From Yponomeuta sedellus (lineage: Eukaryota > Arthropoda > Insecta > Lepidoptera > Yponomeutidae): a stretch of DNA of 64,000 bases. Below are positions 3,681 through 54,765 of the stretch, piece after piece. The notes beneath the pieces are model-generated. The model was not told the origin of the DNA. It saw only the letters and a list, made by a program, of their open reading frames with translations, and made no database searches. A program made the position numbers and the translations under genes. Each line of letters begins with the position of its first letter. The stretch's first letter is position 1. The stretch lies in NCBI GenBank assembly GCA_934045075.1, contig OW203732.1, positions 17,019,889 to 17,083,888 of the forward strand, given 5' to 3'.

Positions 3681-4049
3681 GAAGCGCTCGTGGCCTAGTT
3701 GAACCGAGTGATTGTAATCAATCACTTGAGTTGAGCAACAACCGGCGTGGTCAGGTACAGGATGGGTGACCGTCGGTGACTACCGCTAGTGGCAATTTTT
3801 CTGAGCGTTTCTGTGCTTCGCAAGGCACGTTAAACCGTTGGTGCCGGCTGTCATGTAATGGTAGTCGTTAAGCCATATCAGAGGCCTTATGGGCGGCTTG
3901 ATAACTTCTGACAGTAAGATCCGCCACTGTCATACAACCCTCCACCAACCCGGAATTGGCCCCCGTGGTGGAGTATGGCCGAACTTTCTTGCGATGCAAA
4001 AAGAGACCCGTGCCCCAGCAGTGGGGACATACAAGGGTTTATATCGATG
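3681..4049 (+). repeat. Near full-length 5S rRNA-derived SINE
   Basis: Starts 'gaagcgctcgtggcctag'. Positions about 3714-3775 resemble the internal promoter region of 5S rRNA: a box-A-like 'gagttgagcaac' and a box-C-like 'ggatgggtgacc' lie at about 5S spacing. The body runs through 'gcttcgcaaggcacgtta' into the common tail ending 'tatatcgatg'. It would be a pol III-type SINE of the SINE3 (5S-headed) class. The 5S resemblance comes from reading the sequence; the class assignment is inference. Confidence 0.7.
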
Positions 4050-5132: not shown

Positions 5133-5505
5133 GAAGCGCTCGTGGCCTAGGCGAACTAAGTGATTGGAATCAATCACTTGAGTTAAGCAACTACAGGCGC
5201 GGTGAGGTGCAGGATGGGTGACCGTCCCGTGACTACCGCTAGGGGCATTTTTCCGAGCGCTTCCGTGCTTTGCAAGGCACGTTAAGCCGTTGGTGCCGGC
5301 TGTCAAGTAATGGCAGTCGTTAAGCCATGTCAGAGGCCTCATGGGCGGCTTGATAACTTCTGACCGTAAGGCCCGCCACTGTCTTACGAACCCTCCACCA
5401 ACCCGGACTTGGCCCCCGTGGTGGAGTATGGCTTAACCTTCCTGCGATGCAGGAAGAGACCCGTGCCCCAGCAGTGAGGACATACAAGGGTTGATAATGG
5501 TGATG
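5133..5505 (+). repeat. Full-length 5S rRNA-derived SINE
   Basis: The best preserved copy of the family. It has the head 'gaagcgctcgtggcctag', a 5S-like stretch with 'gagttaagcaac' and 'ggatgggtgaccgtcc' at about 5180-5226, and the full body and tail ending at about 5500. A second SINE copy follows at 5577, separated by about 75 bp of sequence that is also found in inverted orientation at 22265-22345. Confidence 0.75.
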
Positions 5506-9730: not shown

Positions 9731-10097
9731 GAAGCGCCCGTGGCCTAGTCTAATTGAGTGATTGGAATCAATCACTTGAGTTAAGCAACAACAGACGTGG
9801 TCAGGTGTAGAATGGGTGTCCGTCCCGTGTTCTCAGTGGAATTTTTCCGAGCGCTTCCGTGCTTCGCACGGCACGTTAAGCCGTTGGTGACGGCTCTCAC
9901 GTAATGAAGGTCGTTAAGCCAGGTCAGAGGCCTTATGGGCGGCTTGATAACTTCTGACAGTAAGGCCCGCCACTATCTTACACTCCTCTATCAACCCGGA
10001 CTTGGCCCCTGTGGTGGAGTATGGCCTAACCTTCCTGCGATGCAGAAATAGACCCGTGCCCCAGCAGTGGGGACATACAAGGGTTGATATCGACCGA
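9731..10097 (+). repeat. 5S rRNA-derived SINE
   Basis: Starts 'gaagcgcccgtggcctag' and contains the 5S-like 'gagttaagcaacaacagacg' followed by a 'gaatgggtgtccgtcc' variant of box C. It ends 'gttgatatcgacc'. Nearly full length with scattered substitutions. Confidence 0.75.
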
Positions 10098-14830: not shown

Positions 14831-14918
14831 AATTTGAGGCCGTGTAAATCATAACAATATTATTCATGTGGCGTGAATTTTCATTAAAAATCTTGTTTAC
14901 GTTTAATTTTCTCTGCAG

Positions 14919-17900
14919 ATCGAGGACACGAGCAAGAAAAAGGGCGGCCACACATTCCTAGTACCAATGAATGGAGGCATTTGGACGATGTGCATTTCTT
15001 TAGATGGTAAGAATTGTTATTGTTAGAATAATGATTGAGGTGTAACAAAAGGTTCGTTGCCACAAATTTACAAGCGAAACGGGAAAGCCACCACACTATT
15101 AACATAAGGTATAAATAAATAAACCAATCGAATAGTAAAATTCAATTAACGTGATTTTTTTTTAATATGAACTGAGCGATGTTGTACTGAGTAGATTTAA
15201 GAATAAAACTAGAGGCGTTAGTTTTCAATGAGATCCTATGAGATGTTTAATTTGTTTTGATATTGGCCGTTAAGTGTTAAATGATTCTGTAACACTGCCA
15301 GACAGTGGAATCTGATCATTTCAGCACGGTCTTGGCTAATAGAACACTTGTTCAGGCACTTACTTATTGTATTCTAAAACATTTTGTAATGAAATAAATA
15401 AATAAATACGTGATGTATACTACGTCACACTTTCCTTACCCATCTCATCCACTCATGCCAAACAATCTTACGCTCTGGAGCCGGTCGAGAAAGGCAAAGT
15501 TTACGAATGGGAAGTTTCAATAGACCAAAATAAAATCGGCAAAAATCTTGAGCAAATACTCAAAAGAGGAAAGAAAGTGCGGAGCTCAGGGACTATATCA
15601 GCCAAATGAGTTACCGAAAATTTAGGTGTGGTTAACGGCTAACATTGGAGCAATTAGGTATATCATAATTATGCATAGGTAATATAATGCATAATTATAC
15701 AGAATTTCATATATAATAAAAATCGATCCGGCTGCTTGTAAAGATCAAACTGATGTTAGAGCTCTAAAAAAGTTGAACATCAACAAAACATTATCTCTCC
15801 TACCTCATTTCACATTGACGCTATGTTTGAAAGCTTATAGATATCTAACCTATTCTGATGATGCTATTTCCGGTCTAGAATAGATAGCAAAGTTAGCCTA
15901 CTTTCTCAACCGTAGTTCGGATCCGATCCGATCCGATCTCATTTTCAGTACGCCCTATTCTCAGCTTCAATACCCTATTGGACGGAACAGAACAGACTGC
16001 GGGGTTGTTTGACATACTTTCTAATTACATAAAATGTACCAACGATTCACATCGGAAATGAGACAGTCCGCCAAAGAACTAAGATCAAATATGCGCAGAA
16101 CCGATGGTCGATGGGGTTAGTTAGTTAGACCTGAGATTTCCGCCTCATAGTTGGGCCATTGTACGTAGCAAATGCTGAGGTACGCTAACACCTCAGACAC
16201 TAGGGTTTCCTTACGATGTTTTTCCTTCACCGTCTGCGAGTAGTATTGCTACTATAATTTCACAAATGTACATAACTTAGAAAACAAAGTCATTGGTACA
16301 TGCCGGGCTTCGAACCCACGACCTCCCGATTGAGAAGCCGGCGTTCTACACCGCTCCTCTACCACCGCTGTTTGTTCGATAGGGTGCAAAGTTTCTCGAT
16401 TGGAGATCACGAACTGGCAAACGCAGCATAGGACGCCCACCAGCTCGCTCAACCGACGACCTGAGGTCAATTGCTGGCAGTGGCTGGATGATGATGGCCC
16501 TGGACAGAATCAACGTGCGTTGGGGGAGGCCTATGTCCAGAAATTGACGACGAGTACAGGCTGATTCTCGGCAGCAGTGGACCTGTGGAACCAACGATTC
16601 TTGGGCATAAGTGACCAGCAAGGCATTTCAGCATGCTAATCGAATAGGCTATATCATTCACCTTAGTTCTTTGGCAGATGGTTTTATTTCTGGCGTGATC
16701 CATCAAAGAGAATCCGAGCTCCAAGCATAGCCCTATATCACGGTGAGCGAAATCAGTGGAGTACCTAGTCCTACCGTCTGTGCAGACGTTTTGGTTCCGC
16801 TCCGTAAATCATAAGGAATGCTAGAAGTTGTAGGTATTTTTTATTAAAAAAAGAACCCGTTACAATAAGGCCCTACAAAACCAATTTCTTGGTTTGACTG
16901 TGGGATTGTCTCATTTACAATAGTTTTACCAGAGATTTTACATAAGATTTGCACATTAGCACTTTCTGATAACTAGGATGTTAGTCAGGTAGGGCTCATT
17001 TGCTATGAGCCCTACCTCATATTATGTATAATATGTATATTACCATATACATAATATTGTAACGCTTTGGTGTAATTTTACTATTATGTTACAATATTCA
17101 TGTAAACATATAAAATAACTAGCAGGACGCACTTGTTGAAAAGGCTCGGCTCTTTAGGCTCTGAGGAATAGCCGAGGAGAAAAATGGGCTGATCGATTGA
17201 TACCTACAATTTGATTTATTTCAGAGGAGGAGGTGACAATGCTGTATCGAATAGGGTTTCCACGAGACCCGGTGTGCACAAATTATTTAGCCAACAGTGA
17301 CTACGAAGAGCCGAGGGCTGACTGGCAACATAGTAAGTTTCATTTATCTGAACTCTTTTAACAACCTCTATCTAATTAGGCATTTTCAGGGGGTCCTCAG
17401 TAACACTAGCGCCAATGGAAAACCAACATATCTGTTTTAGAGAATCAGTTTTTTGCAGATTTATTTTTCTGGCCCTGGATGTCCTGAGTTTAATCTTGAC
17501 GTAGATTTAATAGAAATTAATATATTTTTAGAATTAGAACAAGACCAGCCACTAGTCTTGCAAGCCTCCAGCAATCCGGACTTGGCCCCCGTGGTGAAGT
17601 ACCTTCCTCAGGGAAGAAACCCGTGCCTCTCGGTGGAGACATAATGGGTTGATGATGATGATGATGAGAATTAGAATACATTTTATTGGACTTTGAACAG
17701 ACTAAGTTTGGAATTTTTTCGTCCATTTGTTTTCCAATATGATCTAGATTTTGAAATGGACACCTAGTTTGACTAGTGACGTTCATCAAACCGCCGCCGT
17801 TTCTGTGATACTTGGAATAAAACCTTTTCACATCATTTTTTAAGCTATTTAGTAAATTCCATCATTGGGTGCATGTACCTACATATTATTCAGTGCCTTT

Positions 17901-20900
17901 TGTTTACTGTATTGTTTGTTAACACTCATGTTTCCTCACGACGTTTTCTTTCACATTTGGCGTGTTGCTATTACAACTTGACAAATGTATATGTACGGAG
18001 GCCTCCAGTGGAACTCGAACCCACGATCTCCCGAATGCGTTCCCGGCGTTCTACCCCTGCGATACCACCGCGTTTTGGTAGACATTTATGGTGTAAAATC
18101 ACGATTCCTCTAAAACACTCCTAAAATTCAGTTTAAATAGTCTGTTGTAAAGTCTTTCCCTTTACCGTCACATGATTTTTTTTCTTTTTTTAGATTAAAT
18201 ACTGAGCGCTTGTTACACCAACGAAAAATCTGAGTTGGTTTTCAGAAACATATCAAATACTTAGCTTATTTAAACTTGAGGAGTGTTTCAAGGAAACAGA
18301 TTTTTTTATAAATAAGACTGTTGAAACTTGAAAACAAAAACGAAACAATCGATAGTTTTAATCGTTTACACTCTAACGGCATTCAATCAACTTACCTTCC
18401 ATCAAATATATCTTGATGGGACCCACTTTTAATATGTAGAGGAGCTTACCCTAATCACTTTCACTTAAATCGTAGTCGGCCCGTAACACTTAATAACCGT
18501 AAAAAGCCTTTTACGCTTTATCAATTTTTCCGTCCGTATTCCAGGCCCCTGGCAATGCCTAATGTGTTATTCATGATAACGCATAGAGCACAATTCATAA
18601 CTACAGAAGGCAGACCGCCATGGCATTTACTAGTACCTAGTAGTTAGACTGATGACAGGTGCTGTGCAGTTTATTAATTTTTTTAGCTGTTTTTTTTTGC
18701 ATTCTGTGTATTTTTTTTTGTAACGGTTGTGTGTTTGTGTTTTTTCCTTAGTTTTGAGTATTGTGTCGTCAAATAAGTACATTTTTTTTCTTCTTATGTC
18801 TTTCTGCTACTTCCGCACTTAGCTTCATAGTTGGGCCATTGTGCGTAGTAGGTAATTTTAAGCGCTGAGGTGTGTTAACACTTCAGGGTTTCGTCACGAT
18901 GTTTTCCTTCACGGTTAGCGAGTGGTTTTGCTACTATAACTTCACAAATGTACCTAACTTTGAAAACAAGGTCATTGGTACATGCCGGGAATCAAAACCC
19001 ACGACCTCCCGATTGAGAAGCCGGCGTTCTACCGCTCCGCTACCACCACTCTCAAAAGACCGCCGTTCTTGTGGCGCAAAAGATCAGACCATCACACGGT
19101 GGTACCGTAGTAGGTCATAGGACTCGGATGGCAATGACTGAGCTAAGCCATGATATCTGGCTCAGTTACCCACTAATTGTCATACTACCTGAGGGTATAA
19201 AAGGTTTCGCAATCTATTGTTCCCAACATTCCTTTTTCGGCATCCGAAGTGAACACAAGTAATTAGTCATCAACCTGTTATCACCAAGTGCTTTAATTAG
19301 CCCAAGACGCGACGCGTGTGTTTAAGTTCCAACTTGTCTGTGACCTGCTATTTTACAATGGAATTTGAAGTCACAGGTATGTATTATTAATTTACTTTAC
19401 TATTTTGCCTTTTCCTTCTACATTTTTTTTTTAAATAGAGTGCTACGCCAACGTGGCATTTTTTATGTATTTATGTCTGTATATTTTTTACGTTGAAGCT
19501 TTTACTTATGTTTGTACCTACTTGTACCATTCAATTTGGTATAGAAATATGGGTTACAATGTCTACTACTAGGCCTCTCCAAATTTAGCTGCGTCATGCT
19601 GCGTCTGTAAGGTGCAGCCAGGTGCTACGCCGCGCGCCTGAACGCGTAGCAGGCGCGTAGCACTTGCTACGAAACATGTATCTATTTTGATCCGCTTTTA
19701 ACGTATTTTTATTTTGTTTTAGGTACTAGTATTAAGTGTTCTTTCAAAAGAATGCTTGTACTAGATACTTGGCTGTCTATTAAAGACAGCAAATCTGAAC
19801 TGGAGCGTTGGCATCGAGTTTTTCGAGACCTAATACAATTGCTGCCTGATGTTGAGAATTACATTGCTGATGACTTGGAAAAAAGAGTTACTAAAGTTTG
19901 TACAAGATTGGTAGCAATTTGGAAGCAAGTCACGCGCAACCATTCTCGCATGGTCTCTAAGTACGGAGACTGGCTGAACGAAATTGAAGTTTGCGTTCTG
20001 CCAACTTGTGCAACAGTAGGGAGCCACAACACCCAACGGCCAGCAGCAGAAGCTTCGACAAGCACCCAACAGCACCAGCACAGGAAGGACTTTGAGGAAT
20101 GTAGCAAGAGATCAAAACGCCGCAGGCTTGCAGAGTTAAGTAAAGTAGACAGTTCTGCGATAAATTCTTTGTTGGACGATTCTAGTCTATCTAACGCCGC
20201 TGCATCTTTAAATTTCAGCACTGACGAAGTCTTGTCTCTTATAAATGAGACAAAACTGACTAAACATCAGTATCTTTTGGTGAAAGACTTCGTTAATGCA
20301 AAATCACCTAATGCATTACCATCTTATCAAAAAGTGTTAGAAGCTAAGAAGCGGTGCTATCCATCGCAAGAGTTTATCACGGAATCATCTGCTGAAGTAG
20401 AATTACAATCATTGTTAGATCATACTGCTTGCCGGATACTAGAATCCCAAAAACCCGTTTTGAATAATATTGACCCTAATAAAGAATTTGTTTTGATTGG
20501 AAAATGGGGTTTCGATGGGAGTACGGGGCACAGCGAATATAAACAGATTTTTGGAGATTCTGGTATCGATGATGATGGCAGTATGTTTGTTACTTCATAT
20601 TGTCCTCTTCAATTGGTTTGTAAGTCCAATACCTCCGACCCAGATCAAATAGTTTGGAAAAATCCGCGCCCTTCTTCCACCAGGTATTGTAGGCCTATTC
20701 GATTCCAATTTGCCAAAGAATCCAAAGACCTTTCTGTGCAAGAAGAAGCTTATTTCAAGACTAAAATTGATAGTTTACAACCGACTTCTTTCACTCACGG
20801 TGAATATGAAATAAAAGTGCAGCATTCTTTACAATTAACCATGGTTGATGGTAAAGTGTGCAGTGCTCTGAGCGATACATCTTGTAGTAGATGTTATATT

Positions 20901-23900
20901 TGTGGTTCAACTCCAAAAGAGATGAATGACATTGATAAATCGCTGAGCAAAACTGCAGATAGTGGTACCTATCAATTTGGACTATCTCCTCTTCACTCGT
21001 ATATCCGATTCTTCGAATATTTAATTCACGTTTCTTATAGATTAGACATAAAGAAATGGCAGGTACGTTCTTCAGACGAAAAAGCTCTTCTTGCACAAAA
21101 AAAACAACATGTGCAGCAACAGTTTAGGCAGAAACTTGGTCTAATAGTCGACAAACCGCGAAGTGGAGGAAGTGGCACATCTAACGACGGAAACACTGCC
21201 AGAAAGTTTTTTTCTAACTCAGCGGTTTCAGCGGAAATTACTGGATTAGATAAAATCCTTATTGACAGATGTCATAATCTGCTGCAGTGTCTTTCGTCGG
21301 GATACAAAATTAATAACGCCACTTTTAAAGAGTATTCTCTAGAAACAGCACGTAAACTTGTTGCTACCTATCCATGGTACAACTTGCCATCGTCTGTACA
21401 TAAGGTCCTCATTCATGGGTCGGAAGTAATTGAACACGCATTATTGTCAATAGGTGAGCTTTCGGAAGAGGCCGCCGAATCTTGCAATAAATTAATCAAA
21501 CTCTTCAGGCGTGACAACACGAGGAAAATGTCTCGGGTTGTCACAAACACCGACTTGATACATAGACTTCTCCTTAATTCGGATCCTTATATTTCTAGTT
21601 TAAGAAGGTTACCACAGAAGAAGAAGTCTATTCTATCAAAAGAAGTATTAAATTGGTTGTCGGTTTAGGAAAAAATGTAAAAAATAAGATAGGTATTTAT
21701 GTTATTTTTTACATAACTCCTATTATGTAAATATAATATTTTTTGTCCAATTGTGTGTTTGTACTTAGATGTTAGTTAAGTATTTACTTTATTTGTAATA
21801 TAAAATGTAAATAGTAAGGTTTAATAGTTATTAAGTTGCAAACCTTCTTTTAAGTGTAATAAAAATGCATAATTTTGTAAATAAAATAAGCTTTTTAAGA
21901 TTATTTTGTTTTTTTTTTATTGTGTTATGGCTTAAAGTATTACAAAACACCATAATAATAATAATCAGCTATGACAACGACAGTCATTATTATCGCGAAA
22001 CCCTATGACCGCTACTCTTAGGGCGTGGAACCAGTGTGCATCACTCCTCAGCCCCTATTACCACAGAGATATTCGATATCAACCCTTGTATGGCATCATA
22101 CCAAGCTTGATCAGGTCACGGACTGAACTGACGCCAGACTGAACGTGTAAACTCCGTCTAAGACAGTGGCGAGCTTTATATACTTGTCAGATGTTATCAA
22201 GCCGCCCTTCAGTACCATGTCAAAGTCAAAATAGACAATTTCGCAAGAGGAGGTTAACGTGACATGGTTCTAACGTGATTACATCTTAGTGCACGCGGTT
22301 GTACTTACGAATTAATTTGAGTGACACCTAATTCCAAAAACTGTTACCGTTATCAACCCTTGTATGTCCCCACTGCCGAGGCACGGGTCTCTTCCTGCAT
22401 TGCAGGAAAGTTAGGCCATACTCCACCACGGGGGCCAAGTCCGGGTTGGTGGAGGATTGTAAGGCAATGGCGGGCCCACATTTTATGTTCTGTGGGCGGG
22501 CCTTATGGGCGGCTTGATAACTGTCAGAAGTTATCAAGCCGCCCATAAGGCCTCTGACATGGTTTAACGACATTCATTACATGACAGCCGGCACCTACTG
22601 CGCTTGGAATTAACGTGACTTGCGAAGCACGGAAGCGCTCGGAAAAATGCCACTAGCGGTAGTCACGGGAAGGTCGCCCATCCTGCACCTCACCGCGCCT
22701 GTTGTTGCTTAACTCAAGTGATTGCTTCCAATCACTCGATTCGACTAGGCCACGAGCACTTCAGAGATATTACGCCACAGAGATAAAACTAACTAATATA
22801 TTCCACCTACTGAAGCGATGGTGGTCAATTTGGTAGAACAATAGGACTACCAAATGGTACGGACGGACATGTATCGTACCTATGACTTTGTTTATATTCA
22901 AAGTTTCGTACCAGTGCGAATATGTATGAGCGATAGCACGTGGATACCACACGCTAACTGTGAAGGAAAACCTATGAGGAAACCCGTGGCTTGTTTAGCT
23001 CCGTACGTATTGACTTGTCTTGGCTGTGGACTAGGGCGACTAAGCACTCAGGATGGTATAGGAACTGGGCTCTGGGTACTCTACTACGCGTGCCCACCGC
23101 GGATTGGCAATTTCAATCGCTGAGGTTTTTGAACGCCTCAGACACAATTAATATCGGGGGCAATTAATATGGCAAAACAATCTACCACCTATTCTCAATT
23201 TCTCAGACCTACCAAATGTATCTATCTACAAAAAACCATAAAAATCGGTAAAGCCGTTTCGGAGGAGTTCTTTCTATAACGAACACTATGACAAGACATT
23301 TTTATATATTAAATATAGCTTATACTCGTCCCACTGCAGCGTAGAGGCTTTCTCTCAGAGAGAGAGAGAGAGAGCAGCGTAGAGGCTTTCTCACAGAGAG
23401 AGAGAGAGAGATAGAAAAAGAGAAAGGGCTTAATCACCTCGCGCGCGCACTGACTGGCAATTTCAAGCGCTGAAACATCGATGCCGACGTTTTCTTTCCT
23501 TTAAATCTCACGTTTCTACTCGTATAATTATAAAAAAACACTAGGTAGGTATATTTTTATCTTCTTGTGCTTAGTCGCGCTACTGCTCGAGGGTGGTTGA
23601 ATTTCTATTTTTTAATACCTATAATGCATTTATGCAAATAAATAATATTATAAATAAATAATATATCGAGTGGGTGCCTACCAAGGTCATTTAATGGCAG
23701 TCGTTAGCCAAATCAGAGGCCTTATAGGCGGTACGATAACTTCTGATAGTCAGGCCCGCCACTGCCTTGCAATGCTCCACCAACCCGGACTTGGCCCCGG
23801 TGGTGAAGTATGGCCTAACCATGAGCCCCAGTAGTGGGTTAACATGACATACAAGGGTTGATATCGACCTACCAAAATCACTTGACTTTTTGTAGGTACT

Positions 23901-26900
23901 TGAAGTGAACTTCTCAAGTTATCACGCTACAACCAGTAATTATTCGTAGCCTAATCTAGCCGCTAAATATTCAACGCTCATGGGCTAAATCATGCGATAC
24001 GCAGTTCGCCATTCATGACCCTGCACACTGGTTCCACGCCCTAAGAGTAGCGGTCATAGGGTTTCGCGATAATAATGACTGTCGTTGTCATAGCTGATTA
24101 TTATTATTATGGTGTTTTGTAATACTTTAAGCCATAACACAATAAAAAAAAAACAAAATAATCTTAAAAAGCTTATTTTATTTACAAAATTATGCATTTT
24201 TATTACACTTAAAAGAAGGTTTGCAACTTAATAACTATTAAACCTTACTATTTACATTTTATATTACAAATAAAGTAAATACTTAACTAACATCTAAGTA
24301 CAAACACACAATTGGACAAAAAATATTATATTTACATAATAGGAGTTATGTAAAAAATAACATAAATACCTATCTTATTTTTTACATTTTTTCCTAAACC
24401 GACAACAAATTTAATACTTCTTTTGATAGAATAGACTTCTTCTTCTGTGGTAACCTTCTTAAACTAGAAATATAAGGATCCGAATTAAGGAGAAGTCTAT
24501 GTATCAAGTCGGTGTTTGTGACAACCCGAGACATTTTCCTCGTGTTGTCACGCCTGAAGAGTTTGATTAATTTATTGCAAGATTCGGCGGCCTCTTCCGA
24601 AAGCTCACCTATTGACAATAATGCGTGTTCAATTACTTCCGACCCATGAATGAGGACCTTATGTACAGACGATGGCAAGTTGTACCATGGATAGGTAGCA
24701 ACAAGTTTACGTGCTGTTTCTAGAGAATACTCTTTAAAAGTGGCGTTATTAATTTTGTATCCCGACGAAAGACACTGCAGCAGATTATGACATCTGTCAA
24801 TAAGGATTTTATCTAATCCAGTAATTTCCGCTGAAACCGCTGAGTTAGAAAAAAACTTTCTGGCAGTGTTTCCGTCGTTAGATGTGCCACTTCCTCCACT
24901 TCGCGGTTTGTCGACTATTAGACCAAGTTTCTGCCTAAACTGTTGCTGCACATGTTGTTTTTTTTGTGCAAGAAGAGCTTTTTCGTCTGAAGAACGTACC
25001 TGCCATTTCTTTATGTCTAATCTATAAGAAACGTGAATTAAATATTCGAAGAATCGGATATACGAGTGAAGAGGAGATAGTCCAAATTGATAGGTACCAC
25101 TATCTGCAGTTTTGCTCAGCGATTTATCAATGTCATTCATCTCTTTTGGAGTTGAACCACAAATATAACATCTACTACAAGATGTATCGCTCAGAGCACT
25201 GCACACTTTACCATCAACCATGGTTAATTGTAAAGAATGCTGCACTTTTATTTCATATTCACCGTGAGTGAAAGAAGTCGGTTGTAAACTATCAATTTTA
25301 GTCTTGAAATAAGCTTCTTCTTGCACAGAAAGGTCTTTGGATTCTTTGGCAAATTGGAATCGAATAGGCCTACAATACCTGGTGGAAGAAGGGCGCGGAT
25401 TTTTCCAAACTATTTGATCTGGGTCGGAGGTATTGGACTTACAAACCAATTGAAGAGGACAATATGAAGTAACAAACATACTGCCATCATCATCGATACC
25501 AGAATCTCCAAAAATCTGTTTATATTCGCTGTGCCCCGTACTCCCATCGAAACCCCATTTTCCAATCAAAACAAATTCTTTATTAGGGTCAATATTATTC
25601 AAAACGGGTTTTTGGGATTCTAGTATCCGGCAAGCAGTATGATCTAACAATGATTGTAATTCTACTTCAGCAGATGATTCCGTGATAAACTCTTGCGATG
25701 GATAGCACCGCTTCTTAGCTTCTAACACTTTTTGATAAGATGGTAATGCATTAGGTGATTTTGCATTAACGAAGTCTTTCACCAAAAGATACTGATGTTT
25801 AGTCAGTTTTGTCTCATTTATAAGAGACAAGACTTCGTCAGTGCTGAAATTTAAAGATGCAGCGGCGTTAGATAGACTAGAATCGTCCAACAAAGAATTT
25901 ATCGCAGAACTGTCTACTTTACTTAACTCTGCAAGCCTGCGGCGTTTTGATCTCTTGCTACATTCCTCAAAGTCCTTCCTGTGCTGGTGCTGTTGGGTGC
26001 TTGTCGAAGCTTCTGCTGCTGGCCGTTGGGTGTTGTGGCTCCCTACTGTTGCACAAGTTGGCAGAACGCAAACTTCAATTTCGTTCAGCCAGTCTCCGTA
26101 CTTAGAGACCATGCGAGAATGGTTGCGCGTGACTTGCTTCCAAATTGCTACCAATCTTGTACAAACTTTAGTAACTCTTTTTTCCAAGTCATCAGCAATG
26201 TAATTCTCAACATCAGGCAGCAATTGTATTAGGTCTCGAAAAACTCGATGCCAACGCTCCAGTTCAGATTTGCTGTCTTTAATAGACAGCCAAGTATCTA
26301 GTACAAGCATTCTTTTGAAAGAACACTTAATACTAGTACCTAAAACAAAATAAAAATACGTTAAAAGCGGATCAAAATAGATACATGTTTCGTAGCAAGT
26401 GCTACGCGCCTGCTACGCGTTCAGGCGCGCGGCGTAGCACCTGGCTGCACCTTACAGACGCAGCATGACGCAGCTAAATTTGGAGAGGCCTAGTAGTAGA
26501 CATTGTAACCCATATTTCTATACCAAATTGAATGGTACAAGTAGGTACAAACATAAGTAAAAGCTTCAACGTAAAAAATATACAGACATAAATACATAAA
26601 AAATGCCACGTTGGCGTAGCACTCTATTTAAAAAAAAAATGTAGAAGGAAAAGGCAAAATAGTAAAGTAAATTAATAATACATACCTGTGACTTCAAATT
26701 CCATTGTAAAATAGCAGGTCACAGACAAGTTGGAACTTAAACACACGCGTCGCGTCTTGGGCTAATTAAAGCACTTGGTGATAACAGGTTGATGACTAAT
26801 TACTTGTGTTCACTTCGGATGCCGAAAAAGGAATGTTGGGAACAATAGATTGCGAAACCTTTTATACCCTCAGGTAGTATGACAATTAGTGGGTAACTGA

Positions 26901-29041
26901 GCCAGATATCATGGCTTAGCTCAGTCATTGCCATCCGAGTCCTATGACCTACTACGGTACCACCGTGCCCTGTTTTGTTCTTTAACCCGAAGTTGCTCGA
27001 AAAGTGTAAAATTATTCATACTGTATACATAAGGCTTTCAGTAATGAAGCCATGTTTTGGCACTCGTACTGAATGACTCGATGGAGCGCTGTTTTTTTCA
27101 TAAGTAGCTTATATACATGTACAGGCTGTGTTTTTTGGCAATGACGCCAAGAAAAATGCATTTCATTATTCATTTGAACCCTGATTAACTTAAGTACTTG
27201 ATTTTTTTTAATTATGTTTTGCTCTGATTCGTAGATCTTAATGAATAATGTGCAGTGCTTACGAAAATTTTAGTTTATAAAATTTACTTCCCTTTTCAGA
27301 TGTATTTAGCGATACTGTTACACCCTGAATCGCTCGTAGCCCCGGCTGCCTGAGTAATCTTAAACGATCACTATTACATCAGGCGCATTCAGTTGTTTTT
27401 GGATGACTAGCGCTAGTGGCATTTTTCCGAGCGATTCCGTGCTTCGCAAGGCACGTTAAGCAGTTGGTGCCGGCTGCCGTCGATAGATGGCAGTCGTTAA
27501 GCCAAGTCAGAGGCCTTAGGGCGGCTTGAAAATTTCTGACGGTAAGACCAGCCACTAGTCTTGCAAGGTTCCACCAATCCGGACTTGGCCCCCGTGGTGG
27601 AGTATGGCCTGCCTATACCTTGCTCAGGGAAGAGACCCGTGTCCCTCGGTGGGGACATAATGGCTTGATGACGATGATGACACCAACTAACTACTATCAG
27701 AGTCAGATTGTCGGCAGTGGCTGGATGAGCATGGCTTGTGACAGAAGGAATTGGTGTACCTTGGGGACAAGAGTACGGGCAGATGATCGACACGTTGCAA
27801 AATTTACTAAGAACATCAAACTTATTCTCCGCAGGAATGCAAAACCTTTCCATATCGTGTGCACTGGTCTGCCTGATAGTGCTCGGCAGCGCGGCTCTAG
27901 TAGGAGCTTTCGGCATCTGCCAGCATCAGATCAGCGCCGTACTTGTCACCGGCGTTATGTATCTGTTAGCAGGTGAGTCTGTCCGTAAACCGGCGTGCGT
28001 GCATGCAACGCCTAATTATTTATTTTGCCTATGATATACAGCAAAGTACGACAGGGAGCCCATCCAATTGGTCACTTTCTTGTCTGCTTCGTGAATCCTC
28101 CTATGGACTATGCAATGGACAATGGTCACATAACATTTACATACAGGCACATACATTGTTCCTGGCCCCACGCTAGGATACCCTTTGTCGTGGAATCCAG
28201 AAATCGGCACATAATCTGCACCTCTTCATATCTGCATACTGTACCTACCGAACTTCCACCTATGCTTCAGGCGCATCTACCCTGCTAAGTTCGACAGCTA
28301 TTGATTTGAGTCCAGTATCTTCGGTGTAGATTAAAGCCAGGATTCAAGCATGCAACGACTAATGAATGTTGATGACACGAAATATTTTTGTCAGGACCGT
28401 GGCAAGTGGCAAAACCTGTTCTCTACCTACCCCCTCCGCGATACAGGCGTGAATTTATGTAATGAAGGCTTACGTGACGCCAAACGCGTAATTATTAAAT
28501 AAAAAACAGTGATATTGTATGGAATTAGGCGTTACTTTGCGGAAATCCATAATAGCATTAACATTTTTATACAAAACACAGAGTCATACTACATTCAGTC
28601 CTGGGTGTATTTCCATGTTGGTGATGTCCTTGCCTGGTTACAGCACTGGGTATGCTCGTTTGGAACCAGGACAAGTGATTGCGTTTTGTTTTTTCAGGTT
28701 TGCTTAAACTGTAACCTCGACACTCATTCTAATGTCATCCATCTTCAATCCCACTTCTGATATTCACAGGCCTCTTCGCGCTGTTCACTCTCATGATAAT
28801 CCACTTCAAACGCATCCAGCGCGTCTCAACCCGAGGCATCAGTCTGGACGACACCGCTGACGGCGTCATAGGACCCAGGACGCCCGTCATGGGCCTGCTC
28901 CTCTCGGCCAGGGAATTTTCCACATCATGGTCCTTGGACCTGGGTTGGGGGGGAGTAGCCCTGGCCGCCATGACGTCCGTGCTCTGGATTTTGCTGTCGA
29001 AAATCATGAGGTACAATCCCATCTCAGCTATGCTGCTGTAG
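14919..29041 (+). CDS. Claudin/stargazin-like four-transmembrane protein, 5' incomplete
   Basis: Four exons join in phase: 14919-15006, 17225-17332, 27835-27972 and 28770-29041, all with AG/GT borders, giving 201 residues to the stop. The first exon shown begins in phase 0, and the exon(s) holding the start and first membrane segment were not found, here or probably upstream of the window. Visible signatures: an extracellular loop with GIW..C (W22, C25 of the visible part) and a second Cys at 47, as in the PMP22/claudin/calcium-channel-gamma superfamily; hydrophobic segments at about 72-94, 98-125 and near the C terminus (LGWGGVALAAM...WILL). The family forms junctional or channel-accessory membrane proteins. 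I cannot name the ortholog. The 10.5-kb intron 17333-27834 contains two intact Transib transposons, copy 1 in sense and copy 2 in antisense to this gene. A poly(A) signal lies 115 bp after the stop. Confidence 0.75.
15007..16155. other. Intron sequence of the claudin-like gene
   Basis: No exon, RNA gene or clear mobile element is recognised. A short run of GATCC units lies at about 15920-15940. Confidence 0.45.
16160..16385 (-). repeat. tRNA-derived SINE
   Basis: Minus strand: a tRNA-like head at about 16300-16375 with B-box 'gggttcgaagccc', then 'caatgactttgttttctaag', then 'gtgaaggaaaaacatcg'. Full-length relatives are at 17925-18085 and 18830-19060. The open reading frames across 16252-16724 derive from this and a neighbouring repeat (16395-16560, also seen at about 37870-37975) and are not genes. 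Confidence 0.7.
17530..17835 (+). repeat. 5S-derived SINE tail followed by (TTTCA)-tailed retroelement end
   Basis: Positions 17540-17665 are a diverged SINE tail ending in (gat)n. Positions 17690-17835 match a second family ('gactttgaacagactaagtt', 'ggaataaaaccttttca') whose 3' end also occurs at 36205-36275, 54691-54765 and 57249-57400. Confidence 0.6.
17925..18085 (-). repeat. tRNA-derived SINE
   Basis: Minus-strand element with a tRNA-like head ('ggttctaccac...'-type, B-box 'gggttcgagttcc') and the 'tgtgaaagaaaacgtcgtga' body. Same family as 16160-16385. Confidence 0.6.
18830..19060 (-). repeat. tRNA-derived SINE next to Transib copy 1
   Basis: Same family as 16160-16385: minus-strand tRNA-like head at 18990-19060, body to about 18830. 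It ends about 30 bp before the target duplication of the Transib element. Confidence 0.65.
19196..19203 (+). promoter_or_regulatory. TATA box of Transib copy 1
   Basis: TATAAAAG lies 162 bp upstream of the proposed transposase start, inside the element. The equivalent site of copy 2 is 26859-26866. Confidence 0.6.
19358..21668 (+). CDS. Transib (RAG1-like) transposase, copy 1
   Basis: The main exon is 19723-21668. It is open from the ATG at 19752 (638 residues). A short exon at 19358-19376 (ATG in context acaATGG, donor G|GTATGT) joins in frame across a 346-nt intron ending TTTTAG, adding 16 residues (654 total); this splice is inferred. The enzyme would cut and paste the element. In 638-residue numbering the RAG1-type active site is visible: D255 in GFDGSTG (RAG1 D600), D366 in MVDGKV (RAG1 D708), E576 in EAAESCNK (RAG1 E962). 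The zinc site is C381-x2-C384 (CYIC) with H550-x4-H555 (HKVLIHG). Also conserved are IVWKNPRPSSTRYCRPI (about 300-316) and SNDGNTARKFF (about 477-487). A basic cluster near 119-125 could be a nuclear localisation signal. The N-terminal ~240 residues carry no domain I recognise. No RAG2-like gene is nearby. Differs from copy 2 only at residue 635 (W here, L there). Confidence 0.93.
21858..21885 (+). terminator. Poly(A) signals of Transib copy 1
   Basis: Two AATAAA hexamers (21858-21863 and 21880-21885) lie about 190-215 bp after the stop codon and inside the element. Confidence 0.6.
22093..22763 (-). repeat. Compound SINE/MITE block, inverted relative of 5133-5957
   Basis: Reading the minus strand: a 5S-derived SINE head (22763 to about 22565, with 'gagttaagcaacaacaggcg' and the diverged box-C region), its tail to about 22344, then the ~80-bp linker also found at 5505-5577, then SINE sequence carrying the remnant of the same MITE that sits at 5646-5838. 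The order of parts is the same in both places, so a composite repeat has been copied as a unit. It lies in the spacer between the two Transib copies. Confidence 0.6.
22499..22552. repeat. Perfect 24-bp inverted duplication of SINE sequence
   Basis: Arms 22499-22522 and 22529-22552 are exact reverse complements (part of the 'ggccttatgggcggcttgat' block) around a 6-nt loop. In other copies of this SINE the block occurs once, so one arm is an extra inverted copy. Confidence 0.75.
22764..23684. other. Spacer between Transib copies, unique part
   Basis: No gene is supported. Positions 23040-23125 carry SINE body fragments ('cgcggattggcaatttcaat') and 23345-23412 a GA-rich microsatellite run duplicated with flanking sequence. 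The rest is unassigned. Confidence 0.45.
23685..23868 (+). repeat. 5S-derived SINE tail
   Basis: From 'ggtcatttaatggcagtcgt' to 'gggttgatatcgacc', with a short deletion in the 'cctgcgatg' block. The head is missing. Confidence 0.65.
24394..26704 (-). CDS. Transib (RAG1-like) transposase, copy 2
   Basis: The main exon is 24394-26339, open from the ATG at 26310 (638 residues). A candidate first exon at 26686-26704 is joined across the 346-nt intron 26340-26685, as in copy 1. All catalytic and zinc-ligand residues listed for copy 1 are present (D255, D366, E576; C381, C384, H550, H555). The only protein difference I find is L instead of W at residue 635, a single G/T change (TGG versus TTG), close to the C terminus and outside the catalytic motifs. 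Which state is ancestral cannot be told from the window. Confidence 0.93.
26859..26866 (-). promoter_or_regulatory. TATA box of Transib copy 2
   Basis: Minus-strand TATAAAAG, the exact counterpart of 19196-19203. Confidence 0.6.
27405..27675 (+). repeat. 5'-truncated 5S-derived SINE
   Basis: Starts within the body ('actagcgctagtggcatttt') and runs through the whole tail to a (gat)n end at about 27675. The overlapping reading frames of 98-139 residues are repeat-derived. Confidence 0.65.
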
Positions 29042-29155
29042 ATTCGTAGTCAGCCTATAAGATCCGTTGTCAATTCGTTATTTAGGGTTTTGTTCTTGAA
29101 TGGTGCCAACGGGACCTTAATAATATGCCTACGACGTTTATCTGTCTGTCTGATT

Positions 29156-35900: not shown

Positions 35901-38900
35901 AATAAAGAGTTTTTACTTCTCTATTTTTGTATATTGGGAAAGGATAATTAGTCTGGTGGCTAATTAGTGGTCGCAGGCTAATTTATATGTTAAAACAACG
36001 TTTCCCTAGTTACCTCGTAATATATAATGCGTATAGTACATAAATAAAAAATATTATTTTAATTACTTTGACATGCATTAACATATTTCAGGTCTCATGG
36101 GCACAACAATAAGTTAACCACTACAAAGACTGTAGTTGCTAGCCTCACACGTGCCTTTAGCCCATCTGACGGCAAATCGTATCAAATCATAAGCTTCTTC
36201 TAGTTTGACTTGCAACGTTCTTAAGCCGCAGTTTCTGCGCTACTTTGAATAAAACCTTTTCATTTCATTTCTTCATTTTCCGTTATCAGAGCGGGACGGT
36301 AAATTAAGCTTCTTCATTTACCGTCTCGTTCCGTATGACGTTCGGCCTAATCTGCGTTCAGCCTAATTCAGCTTAGTCGCGAGCCTCCCGTACTCAGCAC
36401 CCAGTCTCCTGCGCAGCTTCTTCCCGAGTCTCCCTGACGCCAGCGCCGCCGTATCGCCGGCGGACAGTTCCCGAACTAACGTAGCTACGAAAAGATAAAC
36501 CACTCGGGCACACTCGGGGGAAAGAAAAATTAACTAACCTTCTTCCTCTCGCTTCGTTTGCGGTTCAGCCTAATCTACGCCTCAGCCGCAAGCGTCTCGT
36601 ACTCACCACCTAGTCTCCTGTGCAGCTTCTTCCCGAGACTCCCTGTCATCTGTCAGACAAGCGATGCTGGCGCCGCCGCGTCCGCGATGAACAGTTGGTG
36701 AACTAACGTCGCTACGAAGAGATTGGAGTCTCGGATAAAAGAAAAGCGAACTAACCTTCTTCCTCTCGCTCCGTTTCACATTAAGCCTAGTCTGCGCCTC
36801 AGCGGCGAGCCTCCCGTACTCGATATCTCCCAGTCTCCTGCGCAGCTTTTTGCCCAGTCTCCCCGCCAGCTGTCTGACCAGCGACGCTGGCGCCGCCGCG
36901 TCCCCGGTGGACAGTTCCCGAACTACCGGCGCTACGAAGAGATCCACCACTCGGTCCAGGTCTTCGGTCGCGATACTGGATAGCAGGTGGAGCCAGGCGG
37001 TGAATATAGCTTGTCTCTGTTGGAGAAATGGGTGGTTAATTGTGGTAAGATTTACGTAGATACATCTGTGGTTACAATTTGACTCAATACATAAGTATTG
37101 TATAGCAAATCCAAATGTTTTTTTTATTAAAATGTCAAAGGCATCACGACATTATTGCAGCATTATTACATGTCAGTCAGTAAGTCACAACTTAATTCGG
37201 AAGTTCTACTTATTACGTTTTATTATGTTGTTACATGAATATCGTTGTTACCATATCTTTGTATTGTAATTGTCTATATTTGTGTGCTGTGGCAATTCAA
37301 TTATTATGTATCTAACTTTACTGTTTTAGAAGTATAATATTTTGATTTTTTTTATCTGAAATAAAAGCTACATTATCTGAAATAATTGGCAAAGGAGGAA
37401 TGCTAGGAGTGTTTAATTTTTTTAGCTTTTCTCTCCTTAAGAACCATCCTCGTACTTCAAGGAATATTCTAAAAAAAGAATCAGCGAAATCGGTTCAGCT
37501 GCTCTCGAGATTTGCGCTTGGCAACACATTCAGCGATTAATTTTTATATCATAGAAGAAGATTATACTCACAATGTTAGTAGTATTCGGCGCCTTAGAGA
37601 TCTCGACATTGATAGCTTTTCGCATCTTGTAAATGACCCATCGGAAGTTGATCCTGCCACCCGTCTCCGGGTCCTCCTCGTCAGACGATTTCTTCGGCAG
37701 CAGTTTGAATGACGGCATCGAGTAGATCAGCTTCGTTATTTGGGAAAGCACTGCCGTGACCTTGGGAAAAACGTTAGGAGTTATCAATCAATCAGCCTAT
37801 ACTCCACCACTGGACAAAGGAATAAGAACAAAAGAAATAAGTGGTATGCCTATGCAGAGGGCGCCACTTATTTCTTTCGTCGGCCATCCTCAACCAGTCG
37901 CTGCCAGCAATCAGCGTGATTGTTGGTCCAGCGAGCTAGTAGGCGTACTACTCGGCGTTTGCCAGTTCGTAGTAGGAATTACAAAGTAATGAAACAAATA
38001 AAGAAACCTTACATATGTAACCTCTTTAATACAACATAAGACGCCTCTCGCCTGAAGAGGTTTAACATTCAACGCTTTTATCAAGGGCTTGTTGAAGACC
38101 TTTTGTCAGTCGGATTTTGTTTTGTTTCTGTTAGTTTTTTATTATATAATTTTAGCGACTATATTGTGCCAGTTGGCACCGAAGAATTTTTGGGTGAAGT
38201 CATTTGACACTTGTCCTTTGGTGAAATGCGACAGGCCGTTTCAGTGGCAATAAACAAACATACATACACACACAGACACACACACATACGCACGCACTCA
38301 CATTGGCCTTTGCATTAATGAGATGATTTATACAGCTTCCAGTGGCATCTTCAATACAATAAATGGGTGAAGGGATCTCTTGGATGCCTGGGACATGGTT
38401 TTACATGGTGTACGCACACACACATTGACACATAAAGGCGAAAAACATAACTATCCTTTGCTTCCGCAGCCGGCTAAAAATAGCACGTTATACTAACTTG
38501 CTCAGCCATTTCCTTCGTGACGCTAGGAGTGTACTGCGCGCAAAGGTCCAGCACCAAACTCCGCAGAGAACTTTCCGTGTCGAAGTGAACAAACCCCCTT
38601 TCAGTCTCCACGTCGCCCCTCACCACCGACTCTAGATCCTGCGCGTCTATAGTCAATAGAATCTGGCCCAGGATTTTGGCCGACTTCAATCGAACCCAGA
38701 CATGGGGATAAGCCAGAAACACCTGGCACTGCTGCGCTATCTCGTCGAGTTCAGGCACGAACTTGTTGGTCAAACTCGCGGGACAATGCACCGTTATTCG
38801 TTCAATTAAGTTCAGTATTTGGATCAAGCTGTGGTCTTTCTCCTTCTGTTTCTCCTCGTCGGTTTTCTCCTCGGCCTGGTCGAGTTTTAGCTTGACGAAT

Positions 38901-53810: not shown

Positions 53811-54690
53811 AAATGAAATGAAATGAAATGAAATGAAATGAAATGAAATGAAATGAAATGAAATGAAATGAAATGAAATGAAATGAAATGAAATGAAATG
53901 AAATGAAATGAAATGAAATGAAATGAAATGAAATGAAATGAAATGAAATGAAATGAAATGAAATGAAATGAAATGAAATGAAATGAAATGAAATGAAATG
54001 AAATGAAATGAAATGAAATGAAATGAAATGAAATGAAATGAAATGAAATGAAATGAAATGAAATGAAATGAAATGAAATGAAATGAAATGAAATGAAATG
54101 AAATGAAATGAAATGAAATGAAATGAAATGAAATGAAATGAAATGAAATGAAATGAAATGAAATGAAATGAAATGAAATGAAATGAAATGAAATGAAATG
54201 AAATGAAATGAAATGAAATGAAATGAAATGAAATGAAATGAAATGAAATGAAATGAAATGAAATGAAATGAAATGAAATGAAATGAAATGAAATGAAATG
54301 AAATGAAATGAAATGAAATGAAATGAAATGAAATGAAATGAAATGAAATGAAATGAAATGAAATGAAATGAAATGAAATGAAATGAAATGAAATGAAATG
54401 AAATGAAATGAAATGAAATGAAATGAAATGAAATGAAATGAAATGAAATGAAATGAAATGAAATGAAATGAAATGAAATGAAATGAAATGAAATGAAATG
54501 AAATGAAATGAAATGAAATGAAATGAAATGAAATGAAATGAAATGAAATGAAATGAAATGAAATGAAATGAAATGAAATGAAATGAAATGAAATGAAATG
54601 AAATGAAATGAAATGAAATGAAATGAAATGAAATGAAATGAAATGAAATGAAATGAAATGAAATGAAATGAAATGAAATGAAATGAAATG
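53811..54690. repeat. Perfect (AAATG)176 pentanucleotide array, 880 bp
   Basis: An uninterrupted run of AAATG units. At its high-coordinate end it joins 'aagtgaaaaggttttattca', the minus-strand 3' end of the (TTTCA)-tailed retroelement also at 36205-36275. It therefore grew from that element's short tandem tail. The minus-strand open frame (repeating FISFH) is a by-product and not a gene. Confidence 0.95.
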
Positions 54691-54765
54691 AAGTGAAAAG
54701 GTTTTATTCAAAGTAGCACAGAAACTGCGGCTTAATGAACGTTACAATTCAAACTATATATATGT
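54691..54765 (-). repeat. 3' end of the (TTTCA)-tailed retroelement
   Basis: Minus strand: 'taagccgcagtttctgtgct', then 'actttgaataaaacctttt', then directly the TTTCA array. Confidence 0.75.

Follow-up and report, generated by a model that had tools for sequence, protein, structure and literature searches.

Two nearly identical copies of a transposon resembling the RAG-related Transib elements lie close together in the window, by which we mean the whole stretch of 64,000 nucleotides of the Yponomeuta sedellus genome analysed here. This raises the question of whether they were inserted separately, how recently, and whether the element that they represent still moves. We consider it very probable that these copies, hereafter named A and B, belong to one autonomous cut-and-paste transposon of the Transib class, which spread recently from a single founder through this lepidopteran genome.

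Two insertions in one intron

Copy A (19095..22038, plus strand) and copy B (24024..26967, minus strand) are oppositely oriented and spaced by 1985 bp. Self-BLAST of the window aligned them as an inverted pair of 2946 matched columns with 1 mismatch; two of these columns correspond to chance identity within the target site duplications (TSDs), so that the true element is 2944 bp long. Copy A is flanked by CATCA (19090..19094 on the left, 22039..22043 on the right), and copy B by CCCTG, as read on the plus strand (24019..24023 and 26968..26972). The 40-bp outer flanks of A and B do not resemble each other, and the BLAST alignment ends at the element termini. The sequence-only reading had proposed two near-identical 2944-bp copies, each with its own duplication, and therefore two separate insertions. 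The base-by-base alignment bears this out, both duplications are found at the copies to which they had been assigned, and duplicated outer flanks, which would have spoken against separate events, are absent. The inverted orientation of the pair had gone unmentioned. The single difference is at element base 2561 (window base 21655), a change that A has and that no other of the 61 copies compared below shares. Copy B has the common sequence, shared by 24 of these 61 copies, i.e. B and 23 others.

Both copies do lie within one intron, as had been claimed. It belongs to a claudin-like (tetraspan) gene on the plus strand, delineated by tblastn of insect orthologues, with exons at about 14913-15008, 17218-17349, 27837-27971 (the third exon, acceptor and donor placed by eye) and 28769-29041 (stop placed by eye). 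The shared intron, bordered on its left by the 17218-17349 exon, spans 17350..27836. The gene is conserved in insects, its best named matches being in Hyposmocoma, Parnassius, Papilio and Scirpophaga, and PF13903 is precomputed in several relatives. An inverted pair at such a place may, judging from its arrangement, yield a hairpin RNA upon transcription of the intron.

To the right of the pair, on the minus strand, lies the UTP20 gene, whose best named match is from Manduca sexta. An imperfect 220-bp tandem duplication (36521-36943, 80% matches) overlaps two of the matches to the Eumeta UTP20 protein P0158 (36753-37055 and 36536-36724), and is possibly an exon duplication within UTP20. Beyond the 5' side of this gene, an AAATG pentamer array (53811-54698, about 178 copies, 99% matches) produces a spurious 312-aa open reading frame (ORF).

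The transposase and the element ends

Each copy contains an unbroken 638-codon ORF (19752..21668, plus strand, in A; 24394..26310, minus strand, in B), and it is the sole ORF of at least 150 aa within the element. The protein matches the transposase of HzTransib, from Helicoverpa zea (structure 6pqn), with E=1.1e-117 over residues 150-634. Weak matches to amphioxus RAG1L and vertebrate RAG1 were found near its C-terminus. Its Pfam RAG1 score, 23.1 bits, is slightly under the cut-off of 25, which a relative, P0001, exceeds (26.6 bits). An AlphaFold2 model built with 54 aligned sequences (mean pLDDT 87.3) has HzTransib 6pqx as its best PDB structural match (TM 0.90 by target, 0.69 by query); five HzTransib chains come first in the ranking, followed by RAG1 and RAG1L chains. 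Papers are cited here by PMC identifier, for the parts of their text that were accessible. The DDE triad of HzTransib is given as D126, D225 and E436 (PMC6941560), a numbering that runs 17 ahead of the 6pqn chain (residues 109, 208 and 419). These three residues align opposite D255, D366 and E576, letters confirmed in the window transposase, which would thus form its putative catalytic triad.

A Transib is expected to have a single RAG1-core-like transposase and no RAG2 partner, and this is the arrangement found, as far as ORFs of at least 150 aa are concerned: at that size, no RAG2-like gene was seen in the element. RAGL elements of the ProtoRAG type, in contrast, carry convergent RAG1L and RAG2L genes. 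The window transposase resembles RAG1 and RAGL proteins in the fold of its catalytic core, in its weak Pfam RAG1 similarity and in a stretch similar to the nonamer-binding domain (NBD). The Transib identity proposed for the pair is therefore well supported, by the HzTransib match, the fold, the termini and the TSDs.

HzTransib is among the closest systems for comparison, being also a moth Transib with terminal inverted repeats (TIRs) and a 5-bp TSD (PMC1852546). The DDE positions align and the fold is the same, with 39-42% identity over about 490 columns. HzTransib is longer (3518 bp), with a shorter deduced protein (489 aa; PMC1852546), than the 2944-bp element and its 638-aa product, and its TIRs are described as symmetric (PMC8289069), whereas the window element has offset subterminal blocks. 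It has been called functional (PMC8355894), so that the class to which A and B belong is not new. Another likeness, made by description, is to a Transib of the moth Trichoplusia ni found in a baculovirus, with recent transposition and a palindromic C..G target; that target is CGNCG (PMC4735498), as against a CANTG-like one here.

The N-terminal part of the protein extends beyond the solved HzTransib chain: 149 residues precede the aligned segment, versus 2 in that chain, which may be a truncated construct. Residues 2-75 are predicted to form a four-helix domain, followed by a basic stretch. The N-terminal 90-residue domain is modelled with a mean pLDDT of 87, and a PDB search with it returned no match at E<=0.001. 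A profile of residues 91-146, built from 54 relatives, scored 16.2 bits on the NBD stretch of zebrafish RAG1, a score reached by 0 of 2000 shuffles (maximum 4.1). Among the 54 aligned sequences, 29 have a GRP[K/R]-like motif (H allowed for G) in their first 260 residues and 32 have KRRR; the window transposase has KRRR, and reads HRKDF where others read GRP.

The two ends share a subterminal block. In A, the 5' end (19095..19140, plus strand) starts with the heptamer CACGGTG, followed by GGTCATAGG at element bp 19 and AATGACTG at bp 39. The 3' end (21981..22038, minus strand), read inward, starts with CACACTG, followed by GGTCATAGG at bp 29 and AATGACTG at bp 51. Both termini thus have the CAC start and the resemblance to the RSS heptamer typical of Transibs, each matching CACAGTG at 6 of 7 positions. 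The block common to both ends scored 25 (P 0.0013 with 3000 shuffles, whose maximum was 28; P 0.0021 for an internal control). The spacer between heptamer and GGTCATAGG is 11 bp at the 5' end and 21 bp at the 3' end. The offset between the two ends is 8 bp at the block start, 10 at GGTCATAGG and 12 at AATGACTG, and because it drifts in this way, it is best described as about one helical turn rather than a fixed 11 bp. No RSS-like nonamer was found at either end, the best candidate matching 5 of 9 positions. In ends of the 12/23 type, a conserved nonamer stands at two spacings one turn apart, and this is required for activity.

Neither of these features is new to the class. Most Transibs, HzTransib among them, have symmetric ends (PMC8289069). 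According to the accessible text of PMC9435367, asymmetric ends occur in all of Transib subgroup I, of which they are a mark together with the CTT1 tail and the alpha11-alpha12 region, and in part of subgroup II, and GRP-type NBDs are also reported there in Transibs. We therefore dropped the NBD-like stretch and the asymmetric ends as new features, and regard the element as a member with offset ends, not as a new architecture. A more speculative proposal takes these features together: a still-jumping Transib, whose ends share the GGTCATAGG block about one turn apart (11- and 21-bp spacers) and whose NBD-like stretch is absent from the solved HzTransib chain, may obey a primitive 12/23-like rule, while the intronic inverted pair could form a long hairpin RNA feeding small-RNA silencing of the family. 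We hold this combined proposal to be improbable.

A young family across the genome

The genome searched comprises 657.5 Mb in 57 contigs, the window being on the contig named C12. The 31-bp 5' terminus of the element was found at 317 places without mismatch and at 321 when up to 3 mismatches were allowed, counts that cover the copies keeping their 5' end; the reversed pattern, used as a control, gave 0 in both cases. These 317 exact ends, against none for the control, together with the match between A and B itself, rule out chance. The 100 exact 5' ends listed are spread over ten contigs. As only 4 of the 321 ends deviate (by 1-3 mismatches), older relatives sharing this 5' end form no tail at up to 3 mismatches. 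The search for further copies that the sequence-only reading had called for thus returned hundreds.

We fetched 60 loci, namely all 55 of the exact 5' ends that had been listed for contigs C1-C5, and five out of nine for C6. Of a first-look set of 327 candidates, 40 had been scored, and these supplied the first 40 loci, with a bias to a perfect match over the first 906 bp; another 15 completed C1-C5. Adding A and B gave 62, and 61 once L050 had been set aside for a nested insertion. In this last locus, about 1.5 kb of inserted sequence interrupts the Transib copy near element bp 124-133, and the same 10 bp of the element flank it on either side; another family may thus also have been recently mobile. 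The 61 copies comprise 54 of full length and 7 with large internal deletions. A string search found the unbroken 638-codon frame in 48 of the 61. Two more frames also seem open, those of L065, missed by the search for one missense change at codon 3, and L053 (636 codons).

The 54 full-length copies have 33 substitutions in 158,976 bases, a mean divergence of 2.1e-4. All 33 are private, which indicates a star-like burst for the sampled copies. No substitution is shared among the full-length copies of the 61-copy sample, so that the fixed shared mutations which would have pointed to an old family are not seen. There are also 12 indels, one of which is the uncertain right end of L049. One-base gains and losses at 328-329 (three copies) and 2814-2815 (five copies) are the only recurrent small changes in the sample.

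One internal deletion has itself multiplied. Removal of element bases 1669-2431 was found in five fetched copies at different sites. Its junction, searched with at most 1 mismatch allowed, occurs at 30 places genome-wide, all exact (reversed control 0). It takes away about residues 338-592, including D366 and E576, and leaves a 347-codon frame. With these two residues lost, the derivative is presumably not self-mobile, and its 30 copies argue that the transposase worked in trans. At the breakpoints, 3 bp of microhomology were present in 2 of the 3 deletions tested and none in the third, which is compatible with deletion by interrupted gap repair.

At the insertion sites, the 5-bp TSD that characterizes Transibs is exact in 53 of the 61 copies. 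For the other eight, the match extends over 4 bp in three, 3 bp in two and 2 bp in one (L049, whose right end is uncertain), and two have none. Two full-length copies identical to B, L023 and L046, have flanks without any match, possibly as a result of end exchange or abnormal integration. Among the 53 exact sites, C is found at position -1 in 32, C at 1 in 42, A at 2 in 24, T at 4 in 26, G at 5 in 41 and G at +1 in 31, so that the preferred target is a palindrome near C-CANTG-G. When flanks were joined with one TSD removed, a match spanning the junction was found, in the window or at another locus, for 8 of the 53 sites (0-14 gap positions). The joined L016 site is 94% identical over 278 bp to window positions 5220-5497, and exact across the junction.

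Two further observations concern the places of insertion. A dispersed repeat, SINE-like at a guess, is present in the window at 112-277, 3776-4047, 5220-5497, 9835-10093, 22348-22476 and 27404-27674, and has a CCGTG site resembling the L016 and L045 insertion sites. On C1-C6 and C8-C10, where 93 of the listed places lie, 11 gaps between neighbours were below 100 kb when 3.6 would be expected (P 0.0004), each of these nine contigs being taken as 25.5 Mb and the seven C11 places being left out. Insertions closer than random are a lead towards local hopping or a regional target preference.

Among the best 120 of 677 protein matches, none exceeds 84% identity to the transposase. The closest relatives in this set are P0028 of Eumeta japonica, a fragmentary gene model (84% over residues 1-219, 219 aa; 74% over 125 aa; 59% over 79 aa), and P0001 from the contig 'lgn' (78% over residues 67-638). 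For comparison with a host gene, Eumeta P0158 (small subunit processome component 20) matches the window in 16 stretches of 41% to 93% identity, the four longest being at 77% (287 aa), 41% (286 aa, 47 gaps), 66% (216 aa) and 63% (185 aa). One of the 16 (54%, 28762-29043) is antisense to a claudin-like exon, outside UTP20. Manduca UTP20 matches in four stretches, at 75, 72, 84 and 54%. Entry into the genome would have been by a single founder, possibly through horizontal transfer, a point on which the identities of the transposase and UTP20 proteins to Eumeta do not decide. One scan of viral contigs with six peptide patterns, which may miss very near genomes, found no relatives of the transposase. 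Among the titles listed for the open-access Transib literature, none describes this element.

Recent spread and the question of present activity

Taken with the Heliconius mutation rate of 2.9e-9 per generation (PMC8742016), which may not be that of the host, the divergence corresponds to a mean age of about 72,000 generations (49,000-101,000, Poisson interval). The family is very young, in mid-invasion or just after it, probably autonomous, and an unusually young member of the Transib class. The recent insertion claimed for A and B is strengthened by the 317 exact 5' ends, the star phylogeny of the sample and the 30-copy derivative.

The suggestion that the pair represents an active system holds for the recent past, as near identity is no proof of activity now. 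The main rival reading, to which we give somewhat less than an even chance, is a single amplification about 50,000-100,000 generations ago, now silenced, with ORFs intact for want of time; it contradicts activity today only. Full-length copies with 0, 1, 2 and 4 substitutions number 30, 17, 6 and 1, a distribution that fits one Poisson class (index of dispersion 1.14). With a mean of 0.61 substitutions per copy, a single past burst predicts about 29 unsubstituted copies among the 54, and 30 are observed. Activity may therefore have ended. Coding changes (5 synonymous, 20 nonsynonymous) match the 25% synonymous expected without selection (P 0.65), which suggests neutral evolution after insertion. 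Against silence stand the 24 of 61 copies identical to B and the 48 of 61 with the 638-codon frame, by which both substrate and enzyme gene persist. The claim that both members of the pair are functional likewise stands in part. Both ORFs are unbroken and differ, as announced, by one residue in 638, but that residue makes A less secure than B: the earlier reading did not single out this private change, L635W, which A alone has among the 61 copies, at a position whose conservation across the 54 aligned sequences is 90% or more.

We think it very improbable that the family is instead long established by vertical descent, with gene conversion holding its copies uniform. Conversion could likewise give near-identical copies, but the copies are dispersed, each with its own TSD and flanks, their substitutions are all private, the main derivative is discrete, and the 4 of 321 deviant 5' ends, at 1-3 bases, leave no older tail at that depth. 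A segmental duplication or an assembly artefact, as two copies 1985 bp apart with one base different might suggest, is just as improbable: unrelated flanks at which the BLAST match stops rule out a duplication of A and B, each has its own TSD, and the exact 5' ends found genome-wide, on ten contigs for those listed, speak against both.

For the recent spread of an autonomous Transib that we prefer, the following course may be proposed. RAG and the HzTransib transposase act as dimers. The 638-aa RAG1-like DDE transposase would, as a dimer, bind the CAC-ended termini, and the element would be excised by the nick-hairpin route described for HzTransib (PMC6941560). Insertion into a palindromic C-CANTG-G-like target would create the 5-bp duplications. 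Gap repair at excision sites would generate internal deletions, one of which would have given rise to the non-autonomous derivative mobilised in trans.

The family presents a RAG-related transposon at an early stage of invasion: its common sequence is intact, its young insertions number in the hundreds, its target motif is defined and one derivative is already multiplying. It offers a second natural moth system, beside HzTransib, for how RAG-type transposases choose their ends and targets, and also for how genomes cope with the arrival of an element of this kind. With its offset ends, it allows a possible forerunner of the 12/23 rule to be put to the test.
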